This document shows, in pieces, positions 25,382 through 32,485 of a stretch of DNA of 64,000 nucleotides. Numbering within the stretch: position 1 is the stretch's first letter; the number at the start of each line of letters is the position of its first letter. The stretch is from Brevibacillus laterosporus LMG 15441 (lineage in GTDB: Bacteria > Bacillota > Bacilli > Brevibacillales > Brevibacillaceae), in assembly GCF_000219535.2 (NCBI RefSeq), contig NZ_CP007806.1, positions 804,501 through 868,500 of the forward strand, in the 5' to 3' direction. The notes below the pieces were generated by a model. It worked only from the letters and a program-made list of their open reading frames with translations. It was not told where the DNA came from and did no database searches. Both the position numbers and the translations under genes were made by a program.

Positions 25382-26674
25382 ATGGGGGGAAATCAAACTT
25401 TACATTATACATCTCTGGGGGAACTAATAAAAATGAAACGAGAAGACATGGAAATAAGTTTATCTGAGTTGGGAAGATTATCGGGAGTTCACAAAAGTGC
25501 TTTGGCGAGAATTGAAAATGGTGAAACCAAGCAACCTAAATTACAAACAATCAAGGCTATAGCCGACGTTCTAGAACTTCCTTATAAAGAAATTGTTGAA
25601 CATTATATTAAAATAGAACAACGTGCCGAGGTTTTACAGGAACTAATTTTAGAAGCGATTGAGGTTTCTCAGTTTCAATTAATCCCTAATGTGGCTCAAA
25701 AAGTGCTTGCATCTCCCAATGAGGATACATATATATCATTAGAGCGTCTGTATAATTTTGTTGACACTATTTTAAACAACGAAATTAAGCTATTACTTTA
25801 TGGTGAAATAATCACATATGCCAGGCAACATGGAGTACCAAAGTATATAGCTAAAGGATTATTGCAAAAATATTTGATTGAGAGAGAGGATTTTAAGAGA
25901 CTTGAAGAGTCATATAAAGATGGAGAAGAAATAGCTTACTATGTTGACTTTTTATCCCTTGACGAACAAATAACTTTTTATTATCGTATGGCACTTCACG
26001 CACATAACATTAAAAAGTATGAAAAGTGTATTAAATTTGGTCAAATGGGGATGGAAAAAGACAAAACAAAAAATGATCTTAAAGAAAGTGTAGCATTGGC
26101 AATGTGTAATTCTTATGTAGAACTCGAAGACCATGTCAGTCTTCATTTACATTTAGATGAATGTGAAAAAAAGAAATATCATTTCATTATTAGATGTATA
26201 AACTATTATCGAGCCATAATTCTTTCACAAAGAGGTGATTATGAAAAAGCTATTCCTTTATTGCAGGAATGTTTAGAAGAAGTTATAGGTATTAGACGCT
26301 TGTATCGATTAAACAGGCTGCTAGAAGCTCTATCTAAATCAAAAAATGTCGATCTAATCAGAAAACTAATACAGTCTGAGGAAAACGATTTTTCATTTAA
26401 TCCAGTTACGCCACACCAATATGCTCAGGCAGGTATGTACTATAAATTTAAAGGAACTTTTCTTATTGAAAATGGGCAATTCGATTTAGGTATAGAACAA
26501 CTTCTTCAAAGTATATCCTATTATGCTATGATAGGTTCGTATAAGGATATTATTGAATGTTCCAAGGAGATTTTTTATTACCACGCATTCTTCAAAAAAC
26601 AAACTAAATTTGAAATTGCAGGAAAATTGAACGAATTGTATAATGAAGTTACCATGGGAGAAAAGAGGGAATAA
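25382..26674 (+). CDS. XRE-type HTH + TPR regulator, RRNPP-like peptide receptor
   Basis: 430 residues. The N-terminal HTH_3/XRE domain (about residues 10-68) has LSELGRLSGVHKSALARIENGE and KLQTIKAIADVLEL. The rest is all-helical with degenerate TPR-like repeats, for example MALHAHNIKKYEKCIKFGQMGM, INYYRAIILSQRGDYEKAIPLLQECL and LIENGQFDLGIEQLLQSISYYAMIG. This domain order is that of PlcR, NprR, PrgX and AimR, which bind short exported peptides. ATG 25382 lies 5-6 bases after AGGGG. Its stop codon overlaps the start of a 46-codon ORF with a signal-peptide-like product, as expected for a receptor-pheromone pair. The codons are AT-rich compared with surrounding housekeeping genes. Confidence 0.82.
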   Translation: MGGNQTLHYTSLGELIKMKREDMEISLSELGRLSGVHKSALARIENGETKQPKLQTIKAIADVLELPYKEIVEHYIKIEQRAEVLQELILEAIEVSQFQLIPNVAQKVLASPNEDTYISLERLYNFVDTILNNEIKLLLYGEIITYARQHGVPKYIAKGLLQKYLIEREDFKRLEESYKDGEEIAYYVDFLSLDEQITFYYRMALHAHNIKKYEKCIKFGQMGMEKDKTKNDLKESVALAMCNSYVELEDHVSLHLHLDECEKKKYHFIIRCINYYRAIILSQRGDYEKAIPLLQECLEEVIGIRRLYRLNRLLEALSKSKNVDLIRKLIQSEENDFSFNPVTPHQYAQAGMYYKFKGTFLIENGQFDLGIEQLLQSISYYAMIGSYKDIIECSKEIFYYHAFFKKQTKFEIAGKLNELYNEVTMGEKRE

Positions 26675-26814
26675 TGATGAAGAAAATTGTAATTTCTACT
26701 ATTATCTTTTCAACCTTCTTATCACTTACATTTATTGTTTATGATAAATTTATGGGAGTTTACTCAGAAAAGTATTCCGCTTCCAAAGTTTATAACGAAG
26801 ACCCAGGGCATTAA
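26674..26814 (+). CDS. candidate Phr/NprX-like signalling-peptide precursor, 46 residues
   Basis: Starts at ATG 26674 or 26677, overlapping the regulator's TAA, with AGAGGGA at 26663-26669 as Shine-Dalgarno. The product has two lysines, a hydrophobic core (IVISTIIFSTFLSLTFIVYD) and a polar C-terminal part of about 23 residues that ends SKVYNEDPGH. This is the build of exported pro-peptides cut to 5-10 residue pheromones. It is directly followed by a terminator (26835-26863), so the two genes form one unit. The mature peptide would come from the C-terminal end, but which residues is unknown. A small membrane peptide with another role cannot be excluded. Confidence 0.68.
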   Translation: MMKKIVISTIIFSTFLSLTFIVYDKFMGVYSEKYSASKVYNEDPGH

Positions 26815-26834
26815 TCAACTTAAACCTTTTTAGG

Positions 26835-26863
26835 AAAAAACGCTATGGATTTAGCGTTTTTTT
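26835..26863 (+). terminator. intrinsic terminator after the signalling-peptide ORF
   Basis: AACGCTA and TAGCGTT arms, A-run before and seven T after. Confidence 0.88.
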
Positions 26864-27078
26864 GTTGTTAATGATTTTACAGCTAGTTTTCAGATATTCT
26901 ACGATAAATAGAGTTTTTAGCTAAAAGAGGATTCTGTATGTCTCTAATACGAGAAGTTTATAGATAGAAAATAATAAATGAGGCAAGAAGGGCGTTTCTT
27001 GAGAGATTATGAAAAATAGTTTCGACATTAAATGTAATATATTGTCGATAATTTTATAGTGTCGCAAATGTAAAAATT

Positions 27079-27108
27079 TTGAAGATTTCTAGCGACGGCT
27101 GATATACT
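27079..27108 (+). promoter_or_regulatory. predicted promoter of the structured segment
   Basis: TTGAAG, 18-base spacer, TATACT. The first hairpin starts about 55 bases downstream. Confidence 0.4.
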
Positions 27109-27114
27109 TATAGT

Positions 27115-27240
27115 AAGCATTTTGAAAGGGGGAATTGTTATAAGAAATTTTATTCTTAAATAGGGACGTTCTTCAAGTAATAGATAAGCCTGAACGTCCC
27201 ATTCAACATGAGTAATAGGCTAATATTACTCATACTAATT
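27115..27240 (+). ncRNA. candidate structured RNA or leader with two perfect hairpins
   Basis: Hairpin 1: GGGACGTTC (27163-27171) pairs with GAACGTCCC (27192-27200) across a 20-base loop. Hairpin 2: ATGAGTAATA (27208-27217) pairs with TATTACTCAT (27224-27233) around GGCTAA. AGCC in loop 1 (27187-27190) is complementary to GGCT in loop 2, so the loops could kiss. Neither stem has a T-tract, so they are not simple terminators. It may be an independent RNA or the leader of the secreted-protein gene at 27375. Not matched to a known class. Confidence 0.4.
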
Positions 27241-27374
27241 TTACCATTTTTGAAGTAGTGGCGAAAGTACAATGTCACAGGAAAAAATACTTAATGCAAT
27301 GGTTCTAAAAGGTTTAGCTTAACTATTAATGGTTATGGGTGAAAGGGATAAAATAAATTTTTGGGAGGATTAAC

Positions 27375-27902
27375 ATGAAAAGGATTATGACAGTCTTAAG
27401 TCTTTCTGCTTTGCTCGTGATCCCTACTACGGGTGGAAATGTTCTAGCATCAGAATCAAATGAACTATCTTTAGAAAGAAATGTGACTGAAAACTATGAA
27501 GTTGATTTCGAAAAATGGCCTACTAGTGATTTATCTAGTGAAATTGAATTGTCAGTAAACGTTTATACAAATAGTTTTAGTAGTCAAGGGTTTGACTTTA
27601 AAAGTCTTGCCACAGGAAAAACAAAACTATCATCCTCTGACAGTGAAGTAAAATCAACGGGGAAAACTAAAGGTAAAACTTTAAGTACAGTTGTTTCAGC
27701 AACAACAGGTTTATTTAAAGATGGTGAAAGCTTAGGGGAAAGTGATAAAGCGATTGCAATAGGTAAGTTGACTGCAACAGCTGAGAAAAGTTATTTCTCA
27801 AATAAGTGGAAAAAGAACAAGTTTGAAGGTGTAACTGTTCACACTGCAACTTATGATGGAGTTTTATACGATGATGCTACCGCAGATAAATTTGTAAAAT
27901 AA
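27375..27902 (+). CDS. small secreted protein of unknown function
   Basis: 175 residues with a clear signal peptide (about 1-25, ending NVLASES). The mature part is rich in Ser, Thr and Lys, with a strand-like central region (SSEIELSVNVYTNSF, GKTKGKTLSTVVSATTGLF) and no cysteine. No family recognised. Start ATG 27375 follows GGGAGG. It is a single gene ended by a perfect terminator. It sits between the peptide-receptor pair and a lipoprotein gene in an AT-rich stretch, so it may be part of the same accessory block. A link to quorum control is only a guess. Confidence 0.75.
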   Translation: MKRIMTVLSLSALLVIPTTGGNVLASESNELSLERNVTENYEVDFEKWPTSDLSSEIELSVNVYTNSFSSQGFDFKSLATGKTKLSSSDSEVKSTGKTKGKTLSTVVSATTGLFKDGESLGESDKAIAIGKLTATAEKSYFSNKWKKNKFEGVTVHTATYDGVLYDDATADKFVK

Positions 27903-28074: not shown

Positions 28075-29133
28075 ATGAAAATAAAGAATTATTGGATGCT
28101 CCTATCGTTAGTGTTAATGTTAAATTTGATGCTTACAGCTTGCTCAAATGAAGGGTATTTACATGTTAAATATAAACAAGATGATATTTTGGTTATTCAG
28201 GGTGAAAAATTTTCCAAAAGTGAACATACTTTACTACATAATAGCCCTGTTGAATCCGCTTCTTTTACTACTGCAACGGGGTTTGTTCCAGATGAAAGAT
28301 GGAAAAGTCAAATAAAGGTACAGGATGAAAAATATACGTTTCTTGATATACATTCATCTAATGTAATAACAGGTATATTTATTCTTGATAATAATTCAAA
28401 AAAAGATATTAGATACAGGCTACTTGCTTATCAGGGGAACATAAACATACCAATTAATATTGATGGTTATGATAAAAAAATTGGAATTGAAGTAACGGTA
28501 AAGAGCAATACCACAGTAAAGCTACCTGTATCGATTCCATTTTCAACAACAGGCGATAAGGAACTAACTATTTTTCCAATAACTATTTCTAATCAATTAG
28601 AAAGATATAACGGTGGAAATCTTGGCTTAGTGCGATTTTTTGTCTCAAATGGAATGGATACTCAAATAACGAAAGAGATAATTGCTAAACAAGAATTCTC
28701 GTTACCTGAAAATTATGACACACGAAATATTTCTTTACTCCCTACGTTATCCTGGATGGGGGATAAGTTCGCTGAACCGAAATACATGAATAGGAATAAT
28801 AAGCGATACACTACAAAGAAAGTGAAAGGGTTACAAGTAAAGCCATTACCATATGATACAAAGCTCGATATAATTTGGGCAGACGAATTTGGGAATACTA
28901 GCCTACTTGCAAAAGATGTTCCTGTAACTAAAAATCAAGCTACCTCCATTAATATAGAAGATCAGATATTATCGGACATCTATAAAAACGAACAACGTCA
29001 ATTTTTATTTGTTTTTGCTAACAGGAATGAAGAAATCTTGGCTGATGCGCTTGCCCTTGATCAATTAAAAAAACCTTATATGACTACCTTTCAAGGGATC
29101 ATTGAGATATATCCAATTATAGAGAAAAACTAG
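28075..29133 (+). CDS. lipoprotein of unknown function
   Basis: 352 residues with a lipoprotein leader (lipobox LTAC, Cys23) and a beta-rich mature part. The central region (VITGIFILDNNSKKDIRYRLLAYQGN, VTVKSNTTVKLPVSIPFSTTGDKELTIFPI) reads like an Ig-like or adhesin-type sandwich domain. No enzyme motif seen. Start ATG 28075 lies 12 bases after GGGAGG. Base composition is AT-rich like its upstream neighbours. It would be anchored to the outer face of the cell membrane. No recognised family. Confidence 0.75.
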   Translation: MKIKNYWMLLSLVLMLNLMLTACSNEGYLHVKYKQDDILVIQGEKFSKSEHTLLHNSPVESASFTTATGFVPDERWKSQIKVQDEKYTFLDIHSSNVITGIFILDNNSKKDIRYRLLAYQGNINIPINIDGYDKKIGIEVTVKSNTTVKLPVSIPFSTTGDKELTIFPITISNQLERYNGGNLGLVRFFVSNGMDTQITKEIIAKQEFSLPENYDTRNISLLPTLSWMGDKFAEPKYMNRNNKRYTTKKVKGLQVKPLPYDTKLDIIWADEFGNTSLLAKDVPVTKNQATSINIEDQILSDIYKNEQRQFLFVFANRNEEILADALALDQLKKPYMTTFQGIIEIYPIIEKN

Positions 29134-29509: not shown

Positions 29510-32083
29510 TTACTTATCAGTAACCGCATATTTTTTGCCGTCAATTGTAATGGTATAATTTGTAGGACCGCTGATAGGCACGTAATAAACGATGCTCACA
29601 TCTATGCTTTGTCCAGGCGCTACTGATTTCCAAGTAGGAATGGTGACTGCCACACGGTGAAAATTACCCTTTAATCCACCGACGTTTGGCCCCGTATGAC
29701 CAGCAGAGATTAGTTTTACACTATCCCCGCCATAGCTACTAAATTGGGCTGAGGTAGAAGTAGGAACATCGAACTCAATGACGGAGCCGCCTGTGATAGT
29801 TAGATTACTGTTATTGGTTATTTTTAGCGTAGGATTGATTGGATAGTTTTGATCTCCTAGTTGAAAGCCAGTGACTTCTATTTTTAGGGCTAGTTTATCG
29901 GCTGGTAGCGGGGTTTTACTATTTGAAGCATCATATGGGGTTGCTATTAAAAATTTACTATGCATCAATTTGGTTAAAGTAGAACCCATGTGGTATTCTC
30001 CTTTACCGTCATTGCGATCCTTGTACCAGTCGTAGTCACCTGCCAATTCCCAAATCATAATGCCGCCAATCCCATTTTTTATAACATAATCTGCTTTGGC
30101 GCCGATAGATTGTTCATCCTCAGTAGATAGAAAAACTTTCTTCTCAGCATTCCAAAGCCATGGGGCAACAAGAGTAGAATCATAGTTACGCTTATAGGTA
30201 CCAGTCAACACTGGATTTACAATCCCATGATCCTTCAAATAGGAGCCAGCAATGCCCTTTTCGAGATTTTTGGCATGCCACATTGGATTTGAGCCTGCCC
30301 CTTCCTCTTTGCCATTCTCATCTTTATCATGCCAGATGTTATCAATACCTGTGGCGCCATCCCCGCAAGCGGTTAGTCCAGTTGGGCAATTTTTACCCAC
30401 AGCTTTTCCCCATAGCCCATCTGTTCCTCCCACAACATTTTGAAAGCCACGAGTATAATAGGGCACACCGATGTTGATTCGTCCTGCCTGCATCATCCCA
30501 CGCATGTAATGGTAAGCCCAATCTGTATTGAGGTAGCCAATGCCGCCATATTGAGGCGTGTTATAAATGTTGTATTTAATTAACTCTCCATCCTTGCCAT
30601 CATCAAATAATGCAGCATTAGGACCAACGAATTCATTCCAAGCCCCGTGAAGATCATAGGACATCACATTCACATAGTCGAGATACTTCAAAGCTTGGAA
30701 AGACTCCATTCCACGCAACAAATAGGCAGAAGAAGGTGAGGCTATGGTTAGCATGTAATATTTACCGTCCTCAGCAGATGCTTGATCCAGCTTGACTCGC
30801 AAGGTTTTTAACAAGGCGTTATAGCCTGTCATTAGTCCTTTTAAGCGAGGAGTGGAAAATTGCCAATCTAATGGATTGCCGGCTTGATTCATTGTAGTTG
30901 GGTATTCGTAGTCGATGTCGATTCCTTCAAAATTATATTTGCGTAAAAAATCAACAGCAGAGGTAGCGAATGTGTCAATTGCAGCTTGATTGACGGAGCC
31001 ATCTGCATTAGTCGTCATCGTGTAAAAGCCTCCAGAAGCAATTCGCTTGCCATTCTCATCAATATATCCTCCTGATTCAGCCCATCCTCCAACGGAAATA
31101 AGGGTTTTTACACCAGGATTTTTTTTCTTCCACTGTGTTAGCAGATTGAAGTGTCCTTTATATGGCAGGGATGGGTCCATTAGGGCATCGGGATACTCTG
31201 GCCAAGTTAAGCCTAGCGCTGGATTGGCTGGATCAGTGGGGGAACCAACAGATACGCGGTTATTACTGTCAACATGTGCAAAAGCGTAGTTGATATGTGT
31301 TAGGCTTTTCCACGGAATATCGGTGACTAAATATTTGGATTGTCCATTTTTCCCCGTTCTCCAGCTTGTAAAGTAGCCAATTATTCGTCGTTTAGAATCA
31401 TTGGCTAGCTTTTCACGTCCATCCTGATCATATGCTTGGCAATAAGGAATGTTTTTTACGCCAGAATCATATAGACCTGCTGGACGGCAAGGGGTGGCTG
31501 GCTCAGGTGGTAAAGTGTCTGTATCTGTAGTGACTTTTAACGGTTGACTAGCCTCAGACTCCAAGCCTTGATTGTCTTTTGCTTTTACTGTAAATGTGTA
31601 AGTGGTATTGGGAGTCAGATTGGTGATCGTAGCATTGGTTTTTGTAACCGCTTGCAAATTATCGTTATAATAAACCGTATAGCCTATCACTTGCTTATCA
31701 TCGGTAGAAGCAGCCCATGTGAGAGAAACACTTGTGGAGGTTTTTGCTGTTACAGCTAGATTGGTAGGTACCGTAGGAGGAGTATTAGAAGGATCAGGTG
31801 GATTAGTGGGATTAGTAGAGCAAACGCCAAGATCCTGCCACACATCACTGGTACCTAGCTCTTCACCCTGTGTCCACCATTTTGCTGTCCATTCATGACC
31901 CTTGTAGGAAGCTTGTTGTCCACTGGTGTAAATTGTTTTACTATCCCAGACAGCTGAGCAGATCGGCGAAGCAGAGACGCTAGCTGGTAGAATAGCTGGG
32001 AAAATACTTGCAAAAAGAACGAAGGCTAACAACAAGAAATTGAATTTTCTGACTGAATGAGCAGTAGGAATGTGTTGATACAT
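29510..32083 (-). CDS. secreted GH18 chitinase with CBM5/12 and FnIII domains
   Basis: 857 residues. Signal peptide about 1-39; chitin-binding CBM5/12 at about 40-88 (YTSGQQASYKGHEWTAKWWT); proline-rich linker; fibronectin III at about 103-188; GH18 TIM barrel from about 232 to 700 with the substrate motif SVGGW (330-334) and catalytic DxDxE at Asp389, Asp391 and Glu393; and a C-terminal beta-sandwich of about 130 residues as in other bacterial chitinases. The first residue of the usual DxxDxDxE motif is Glu386, not Asp, an uncommon change. It degrades chitin outside the cell. ATG at 32092 directly abuts GGAG, so ATG 32083, 9 bases away, is chosen. A single gene on the - strand. Confidence 0.93.
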   Translation of the reverse strand: MYQHIPTAHSVRKFNFLLLAFVLFASIFPAILPASVSASPICSAVWDSKTIYTSGQQASYKGHEWTAKWWTQGEELGTSDVWQDLGVCSTNPTNPPDPSNTPPTVPTNLAVTAKTSTSVSLTWAASTDDKQVIGYTVYYNDNLQAVTKTNATITNLTPNTTYTFTVKAKDNQGLESEASQPLKVTTDTDTLPPEPATPCRPAGLYDSGVKNIPYCQAYDQDGREKLANDSKRRIIGYFTSWRTGKNGQSKYLVTDIPWKSLTHINYAFAHVDSNNRVSVGSPTDPANPALGLTWPEYPDALMDPSLPYKGHFNLLTQWKKKNPGVKTLISVGGWAESGGYIDENGKRIASGGFYTMTTNADGSVNQAAIDTFATSAVDFLRKYNFEGIDIDYEYPTTMNQAGNPLDWQFSTPRLKGLMTGYNALLKTLRVKLDQASAEDGKYYMLTIASPSSAYLLRGMESFQALKYLDYVNVMSYDLHGAWNEFVGPNAALFDDGKDGELIKYNIYNTPQYGGIGYLNTDWAYHYMRGMMQAGRINIGVPYYTRGFQNVVGGTDGLWGKAVGKNCPTGLTACGDGATGIDNIWHDKDENGKEEGAGSNPMWHAKNLEKGIAGSYLKDHGIVNPVLTGTYKRNYDSTLVAPWLWNAEKKVFLSTEDEQSIGAKADYVIKNGIGGIMIWELAGDYDWYKDRNDGKGEYHMGSTLTKLMHSKFLIATPYDASNSKTPLPADKLALKIEVTGFQLGDQNYPINPTLKITNNSNLTITGGSVIEFDVPTSTSAQFSSYGGDSVKLISAGHTGPNVGGLKGNFHRVAVTIPTWKSVAPGQSIDVSIVYYVPISGPTNYTITIDGKKYAVTDK

Positions 32084-32485
32084 CTTTCTCATCTCCTAAC
32101 TTTCATTTTTTACTTAGGTCAGTTCATATCATTGTTGTTATATTAGATTGGTTCGTTTAAATATACAATAGTCTGAAATAAATGAAAAGTGTAATTTCGT
32201 GAAATGAAACAGTTTGCAAAAAGAAGGGAGGAAAGACCTGGGTATAGTTTCGTGCAATGATTTGTACAATTTCAGTCTAATTCTTGCACAAATGTATAAC
32301 GAACATTTGGACTAAAACTTTCAACAGCTAGGCGATATAATAAAGCCATAAAGCGATTGATATAATTATAAAATATCTATAGAAAGCGCTAACATTAATT
32401 TTGTTAGTTAGGTGCAAAAGTGGTTCCAATAAGGATGAAGCACTAAGAAGCACTGGAACATGGGGAAGGAGGTTAAAGGATCACC
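32084..32485. other. divergent regulatory region between chitinase and ascorbate-type PTS
   Basis: No gene. Contains TATAAT boxes at 32336-32341 and 32361-32366, TTGCACAAA at 32284-32292 (the reverse of a word repeated before the fru operon) and a cre site at 32381-32394. Confidence 0.55.
32381..32394 (+). promoter_or_regulatory. cre site for CcpA catabolite control
   Basis: AGAAAGCGCTAACA matches the cre consensus TGWNANCGNTNWCA at all but the first base. It lies about 90 bp before the PTS IIA start and about 20 bp after a TATAAT box, as for repressive cre sites. Confidence 0.7.

Follow-up and report, generated by a model that had tools for sequence, protein, structure and literature searches.

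The gene pair considered here has its closest parallels in two described groups of peptide-receptor systems. In AloR-AloP systems (PMC7425212), as in the family of the present pair, the genes follow the order receptor, peptide and (in part) spo0E-like gene, many paralogues occur per genome, and the propeptides measure 32–50 aa, a range into which the 46 aa found here fall. The Alo13 signal comprises six residues: the spo0E-like gene downstream is activated by the receptor and shut off by the hexapeptide SHGRGG (PMC7425212). AloP13 thus ends in SHGRGG, whereas the present family mostly ends in [DN]PG[HYFW]. The second group, cluster 8, was predicted by RRNPP_detector on chromosomes, plasmids and phages of Paenibacillaceae, and likewise combines an HTH-TPR receptor with an adjacent propeptide (PMC10075063). 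According to the same text, a plasmid of Brevibacillus laterosporus LMG 15441 carries one AloR-AloP system and one novel cluster 8 system. No experiment on cluster 8 was found in the open-access literature searched. The text of PMC10075063, unlike the present work, was not found to describe a code or a leader, and a receptor-peptide code together with a structured leader met no earlier description in the running text of the open-access literature searched; the DPG tail motif may already be visible in the figures or supplements of PMC10075063.

The DNA analysed here, called the window, is a stretch of 64,000 nucleotides of B. laterosporus LMG 15441 (contig NZ_CP007806.1, positions 804,501 to 868,500). 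A further parallel to its gene pair is offered by the AimR-AimP arbitrium systems of Bacillus phages, in which receptor and peptide also precede a regulated transcript, and the receptor family of the window occurs in Brevibacillus phages too. However, arbitrium tails and outputs are different: in the present family, the downstream product is a Spo0E-like or secreted protein encoded after a recurring leader.

A receptor gene and its overlapping propeptide gene

A first-pass annotation of the window, made from the letters alone, had described a regulator with a DNA-binding domain and TPR repeats, the layout of RRNPP receptors, and this layout was recovered (Table 1). HTH_3 matches receptor residues 16–70 over its cut-off, while the TPR region is weak with the single sequence (a sub-threshold TPR_2 match at residues 275–299) and clear with a family profile, which aligns residues 183–374 with 8bu0, a solved consensus TPR superhelix (E 4.8e-7). 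The PHROGs entry phrog_32768 covers the receptor over its full length (E 3.5e-152), but it is an entry of unknown function that brings no mechanism. No entry named Rap, PlcR, NprR, Rgg or AimR was present among all 24 matches, or among the best 60 of the 262 matches of the family profile.

The next reading frame does start within the receptor stop codon, as had been noted, with an AGAGGG ribosome site ahead of its ATG. Its product opens with KK and a hydrophobic segment, the basic and hydrophobic start of an RRNPP propeptide, and ends in the tail SKVYNEDPGH, also as first described; to our knowledge, this tail is unlike those of Phr, PapR, NprX and AimP peptides. The terminator announced straight after the pair is present as a hairpin with a T-run, although the pattern alone is weak evidence, because two such sites were seen in the 4.25 kb scanned against 1.4 expected from shuffles.

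Could the small ORF be a chance ORF, or a membrane microprotein that is no ligand? Neither Pfam nor NCBIfam has a match to it and PHROGs has one weak match (E 0.037), as such an ORF would predict, but it recurs with the receptor at most loci, its tail is predicted by the receptor, and a control within the window points the same way, so that this explanation is very improbable. In the control, a small ORF with a Shine-Dalgarno-like site, a basic N-terminus and a hydrophobic core (criteria fixed but defined by the authors, on which detection therefore depends) followed one of the 41 non-overlapping ORFs of at least 200 aa, and that one is the propeptide gene itself. Judged by architecture, the order is that of an RRNPP-type receptor-pheromone pair, and the window pair is a real pair of genes for a receptor and a putative secreted signal peptide.

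Table 1. Coordinates of the gene pair and of the features downstream of it (window positions)
Feature	Position	Strand	Remarks
Receptor gene	25382-26674	+	430 aa; XRE-type HTH and TPR region
Codon for receptor residue 174	25901-25903	+	Part of the last-residue map
Codons for receptor residues 205-209 (LHAHN)	25994-26008	+	Stretch tracking the peptide last residue
Codon for receptor residue 343	26408-26410	+	Tracks peptide position -4
Propeptide gene	26674-26814	+	46 aa; ATG shares one base with the receptor TAA stop (TAATG)
Predicted mature signal NEDPGH	26794-26811	+	Last six codons; length predicted, -6 borderline
Terminator-like hairpin with T-run	26834-26863	+	3' of the pair
TTGTCG	27042-27047	+	-78 from the leader; first half of the box only; candidate receptor site
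Promoter-like site TTGAAG-18-TATACT	27079-27108	+	TG before the -10; 1 of 27 sites in the scan
Two-hairpin leader element	27120-27243	+	Independent covariance-model match
Gene for 175-aa protein	27375-27902	+	N-terminus resembling a signal (by eye); probable first output gene
Gene for 352-aa lipoprotein-like protein	28075-29133	+	LMLTACS close to the N-terminus (by eye); probable second output gene

A large family and its relation to AloR-AloP and cluster 8

The pair had been proposed as a new quorum-sensing pair; its novelty as a kind is not supported, with 13 family receptors in its own genome and a family that appears to be the predicted cluster 8 (PMC10075063). This genome (5.15 Mb, in contigs of 5,114,147, 32,617 and 7,095 bases) holds 17 receptor matches, fragments counted, of which 13 have sufficient length for judgement: ten close receptors are intact (L009-L018), one is frameshifted (L019/L021), and L020 and L022 are distant. 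All of the 13 except L020 are followed by a propeptide. Family members are present in 5/5 same-genus genomes searched, in 28 of 39 genomes of the order, and in 10 of 104 genomes from the family of a Paenibacillus relative (G005), and the full set of receptor, peptide and spo0E-like gene occurs in the phages Sundance and SecTim467 and on a B. halotolerans plasmid. With one sequence as the query, none of the 31 candidate stretches of the genome-contig scan was a relative; with an alignment as the query, 27 loci were obtained.

Most homologous receptors have a peptide ORF at the same place. By fixed criteria, a propeptide accompanies 71 of 88 related receptor sequences in a first set (six of the 71 pairs repeat, in truncated form, loci counted before, and 65 were kept), and 72 of 78 in a second set, which consists of stop-to-stop ORFs of at least 390 residues (loci L205-L282, some from training-set genomes) and partly overlaps the first. 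Among the 65 propeptides kept, 38 end in [DN]PG[HYFWLM] and 54 in the wider [DNEST]P[GQRL]x. From sequence, this is a large, so far only predicted, family of Brevibacillus-type bacteria.

Several loci look rearranged or decayed. At C1 4568342-4569602 of the same genome (L019/L021), a frameshift divides the receptor, and the propeptide, the leader and the spo0E-like gene are intact. L113 (G003:C1:1518500-1529500) is a tandem of two pairs whose first receptor looks mosaic, its start being close to L012 and its later part showing 86% DNA identity to the window, with an in-frame TAG in the wider match. Five loci (L044, L144, L146, L149 and L150) have leader copies without an intact receptor, most of them 5' of proteins with a signal-like start; L044 and L146 retain propeptide remnants, and all five look like remains of pairs.

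Which RRNPP family is this? The 32.6-kb replicon of the same genome (contig C2) carries two unrelated receptor-propeptide pairs in tandem (L201:9893-13066). One, L018, belongs to the window family, with the tail DYDPGY and 34% identity to the window receptor; the other consists of a 470-residue AloR-type receptor (P0003) and a small ORF that, translated by eye, ends in EHGVGG. Relatives of P0003 occur on 33 plasmid records, among them one of P. polymyxa ATCC 842, whose plasmid peptide ends in GYIGGA, unlike those of the window family. P0003 stands for AloR in what follows, its AloR-type assignment coming from these P. polymyxa relatives and not from AloR13. The DNA of contig C2 had no match among the plasmid records, a set that may lack records near this genome.

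Since contig C2 holds both P0003 and L018, elimination from the plasmid statement of PMC10075063 leaves cluster 8 for L018, and we infer that the window family is cluster 8, an assignment that derives from this one statement. The kind, the RRNPP systems, is known, and the subfamily would then already be predicted. Our first reading, by which the window pair was an AloR proper, was abandoned, contig C2 carrying both families without meaningful similarity between them. That the pair nevertheless belongs to AloR-AloP as strictly defined in PMC7425212 seems improbable: the AloR-AloP gene order is present, sizes, paralogy and spo0E-like neighbours are common to both, and Brevibacillus figures among the genera with AloR-like hits in that study, but BLASTP gives no meaningful similarity between the window receptor and P0003 (E 0.10), and PMC10075063 treats AloR and cluster 8 as separate systems on a single B. 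laterosporus plasmid. The spo0E-like gene itself follows several sister pairs, while a putatively secreted protein follows the window pair.

Receptor positions that track the peptide tail

The expectation that the C-terminal residues of the peptide would vary with the receptor's TPR domain held. An unsupervised scan of 48 dereplicated pairs (59 once L185 and receptors shorter than 410 residues had been left out, and 48 after dereplication at 92%) gave receptor columns 209, 208, 206 and 205 the highest ranks for association with the last residue of the peptide. In these training pairs, peptides ending in H go with [HK]208-N209 in 17/17 receptors, those ending in Y with [YF]208-A209 in 11/11 (Q206 in 10), those ending in G with F205 and H208 in 6/6, and those ending in L with [FY]208-A209 in 4/4 (L206 in three). 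The resulting rule, whose loose class covers five letters (F, Y, L, M and W), was fixed in writing before new pairs were fetched, and was applied to 46 new pairs, namely the second set dereplicated at 92% against the training pairs and against each other (the closest kept being L276 at 0.91, L253 at 0.90 and L281 at 0.87). All 23 strict calls were right, as were 11 of the 13 loose calls, whereas copying the last residue from the nearest relative in the training set would have been correct for 10 of the 23 strict calls. The ten others, of which nine end in W and one in G, received no call. Its failures are L090 (ending in V) in the training set and two ..PDWD peptides; L170 and L195 both carry LHAYA, yet their tails end in F and Y. 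In the counterpart of the window pair in genome G003 (L112), the receptor is 99% identical, the tail reads NEDLGH instead of NEDPGH, and the two genes that follow are both present. This counterpart and the L170/L195 case speak against too rigid a code.

On a tree built without receptor columns 200–212, 28 of 186 branches carry a change of the last residue and 25 a change of the motif class, with 23 coinciding in a test that ignores branch lengths. Of the 23, 21 take the expected direction or lead to an unclassified state, the exceptions being L090 and the L282/L195/L279 clade. Within the window's own genome, whose pairs are part of the training set or of its source, all 11 usable pairs obey the rule (one of them in the loose class; L022, which ends in W, was left out), as do 19 of 200,000 shuffles. 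By last residue, the window pair, L010, L012, L014 and L015 are of the H type, L016, L017 and L018 of the Y type, L013 of the F type and L011 of the G type. Covariation of receptor and tail, a trait of the RRNPP kind, is therefore present, and the code, by which a few receptor positions foretell the last letter of the receptor's own peptide, is strong enough to test directly.

How far along the tail does this coupling extend? A plain Mantel correlation was rejected as proof of ligand coupling, signal positions correlating equally: for the TPR part given the HTH part, it reaches 0.58 for the signal region against 0.47 for the last six and 0.51 for the last ten residues. Linkage thus explains part of the covariation. 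The plain correlation was replaced by a tree-based scan of 406 variable receptor columns against peptide positions, with 16 signal-region positions as controls; its parsimony p-values ignore branch lengths, so that ranks matter more than sizes. Position -1 couples to receptor residues 208, 206, 209 and 174 (4.5e-10 to 4.8e-8, the next column at 6e-4), -4 to 343 (5.2e-8, the next at 2e-3), -5 to 348, 301 and 280 (7.8e-8 to 9.2e-7) and -6 to 246 (1.4e-6). At -2 and -3, which hardly vary (12 and 7 changes only), no coupling was seen, the best value being 4e-4. Among the controls, 11 of 16 lie between 1e-4 and 1e-3, and the best, at 1.3e-6, is as strong as -6. By this measure, the couplings of -1, -4 and -5 exceed the control level, and that of -6 is borderline.

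Since -4 and -5 couple too, the C-terminal hexapeptide NEDPGH is probably the signal, and we read the TPR domain as holding about these six residues, with residue 174 and residues 205–209 reading the last one. It is possible, though rather doubtful, that the mature signal is longer (for example 7–10 residues) or internal, and that the last-residue code is one part of the contact: -10 reaches 1.2e-5, -7 to -9 lie around 1e-4, and some AloP peptides may exceed six residues (PMC7425212), but the best values for -7 to -10 (1.2e-5 to 1.6e-4) are at the level of the signal-region controls, and the coupling of the last residue to the receptor argues for a ligand that ends where the ORF ends.

A recurring leader, its outputs and the proposed circuit

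Downstream of the pair lies a two-hairpin leader element, recognised by a covariance model built from 11 sister-locus leaders, none of them from the window (E 3.7e-6 in the window and 3.0e-4 in the genome search). In such genome searches, 150 of 1213–2517 first-look candidates per genome were scored. The window's own genome has at least nine copies with E up to 1e-3 (150 of 2301 candidates scored): seven straight after pairs (six of these from the training set of the model, and the window copy, which lies outside it), one after a propeptide remnant and one with neither detectable. Across 30 copies, 89.5% of cells pair, and 28 double changes compare with 10.4 in shuffles (0/500 as high), in an alignment fitted to the structure, which favours the covariation score. 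Slid alignments score lower on all five measures, and further pair types do not rise above shuffles (441/500 as high). The leader has no Rfam match in the loci and stretch searched.

Two other identities were considered and set aside. A decayed type I holin-like toxin was dropped as an unsupported reading after comparison by eye with five Hol_Tox 3' hairpins, which looked unlike the leader; the own genome has seven Hol_Tox matches, four of them over the cut-off, and in L047, which carries a toxin of this type, no second match to the leader model was found at E up to 0.1. A coding ORF was rejected because the frame across the hairpins differs among copies, by eye.

Upstream of the leader, a box of the type TTGTCG..GTTTC, searched with a permissive pattern, precedes 23 of 29 leaders (29 of the 30 copies, L245 being left out), at -77 to -80 in 20 cases; the window retains TTGTCG at its place without the second half of the box. 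The promoter-like site between this half-box and the leader is to be read against a scan that found 27 such sites where shuffles gave 22.5.

The most likely targets in the window are the two genes that follow, an assignment that comes from their position after the leader. Neither product has a significant match in Pfam, NCBIfam or PHROGs, and among five same-genus genomes the first has a counterpart in G003 only (95%). An ORF with a signal-like start (by eye) follows the leader in the window and in the counterpart locus of G003; in L044, L144, L146, L147, L149 and L151, such an ORF comes no more than 600 bases after it. Of the 13 spo0E-like matches in the own genome, 5 lie after pairs, and one of these 5 is below the family cut-off. 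Other cargo is found downstream of sister pairs with about 65% receptor identity (L010/L031/L115 and L114), namely a protein of 263 aa, whose Peptidase_C39_2 domain was recognised in the L114 copy (E 9.2e-13), and a lipoprotein-like protein of 400 aa. The leader model has no match up to E 0.1 in L010 or L114, where the C39-like secreted protein lies downstream. Further along the window, on the minus strand (29510-32092), an 860-residue secreted protein combines, by eye, a GH18-type chitinase-like part with a fibronectin-like part.

The gene pair, its recurrence, the covariation of receptor and tail and the recurring leader are all established at the level of sequence, and the reading that we prefer, with a probability of roughly 0.7, is an RRNPP-type peptide quorum-sensing cassette working through export, re-uptake, TPR binding, an HTH switch and a downstream output. 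The propeptide would be exported by means of its signal-like N-terminus, cut outside the cell to about its six C-terminal residues (NEDPGH), re-imported and bound by the TPR superhelix of the receptor. The C-terminal His would sit in a pocket that includes receptor residues 174 and 205–209, with the Asp at -4 facing residue 343, and -5, perhaps also -6, facing residues of about 242–301 and 348. Binding would switch the HTH domain at the box upstream of the next promoter, whose predicted transcript would contain the conserved two-hairpin leader and the genes for the secreted protein and the lipoprotein; at many sister loci, a Spo0E-like gene would be the output instead.

By analogy with Alo13, both the sign of the response and the processing in the window would be those of that system, the free receptor activating and the peptide shutting off. 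It is also conceivable, albeit unlikely, that the same pair works with the opposite sign, the peptide turning the receptor into an activator as in PlcR-PapR: both signs occur among RRNPP receptors (PMC7425212), but in Alo13, the nearest tested arrangement of receptor, peptide and spo0E-like gene, although with a receptor of another family, the peptide shuts the output off.

How RRNPP receptors separate many similar peptides is an open practical question. In this family, receptor positions forecast the last residue of the ligand, with 23 strict calls on new pairs and no error, so that specificity becomes testable, even in the absence of a structure, by peptide swaps among the natural paralogues of one genome. 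Taken together, and with somewhat better than even confidence, the family may use a modular address code, in which residues 174, 206, 208 and 209 would read the last residue, 343 would read -4, and 280, 301 and 348 would read -5. Such a code would give about a dozen insulated channels per cell and cognates that can be matched from sequence; a family-specific box and leader RNA would lead to interchangeable cargo, Spo0E-like or secreted, in cassettes carried also on phages and plasmids. The leader and the secreted or Spo0E-like outputs hint at what the systems of this family control.
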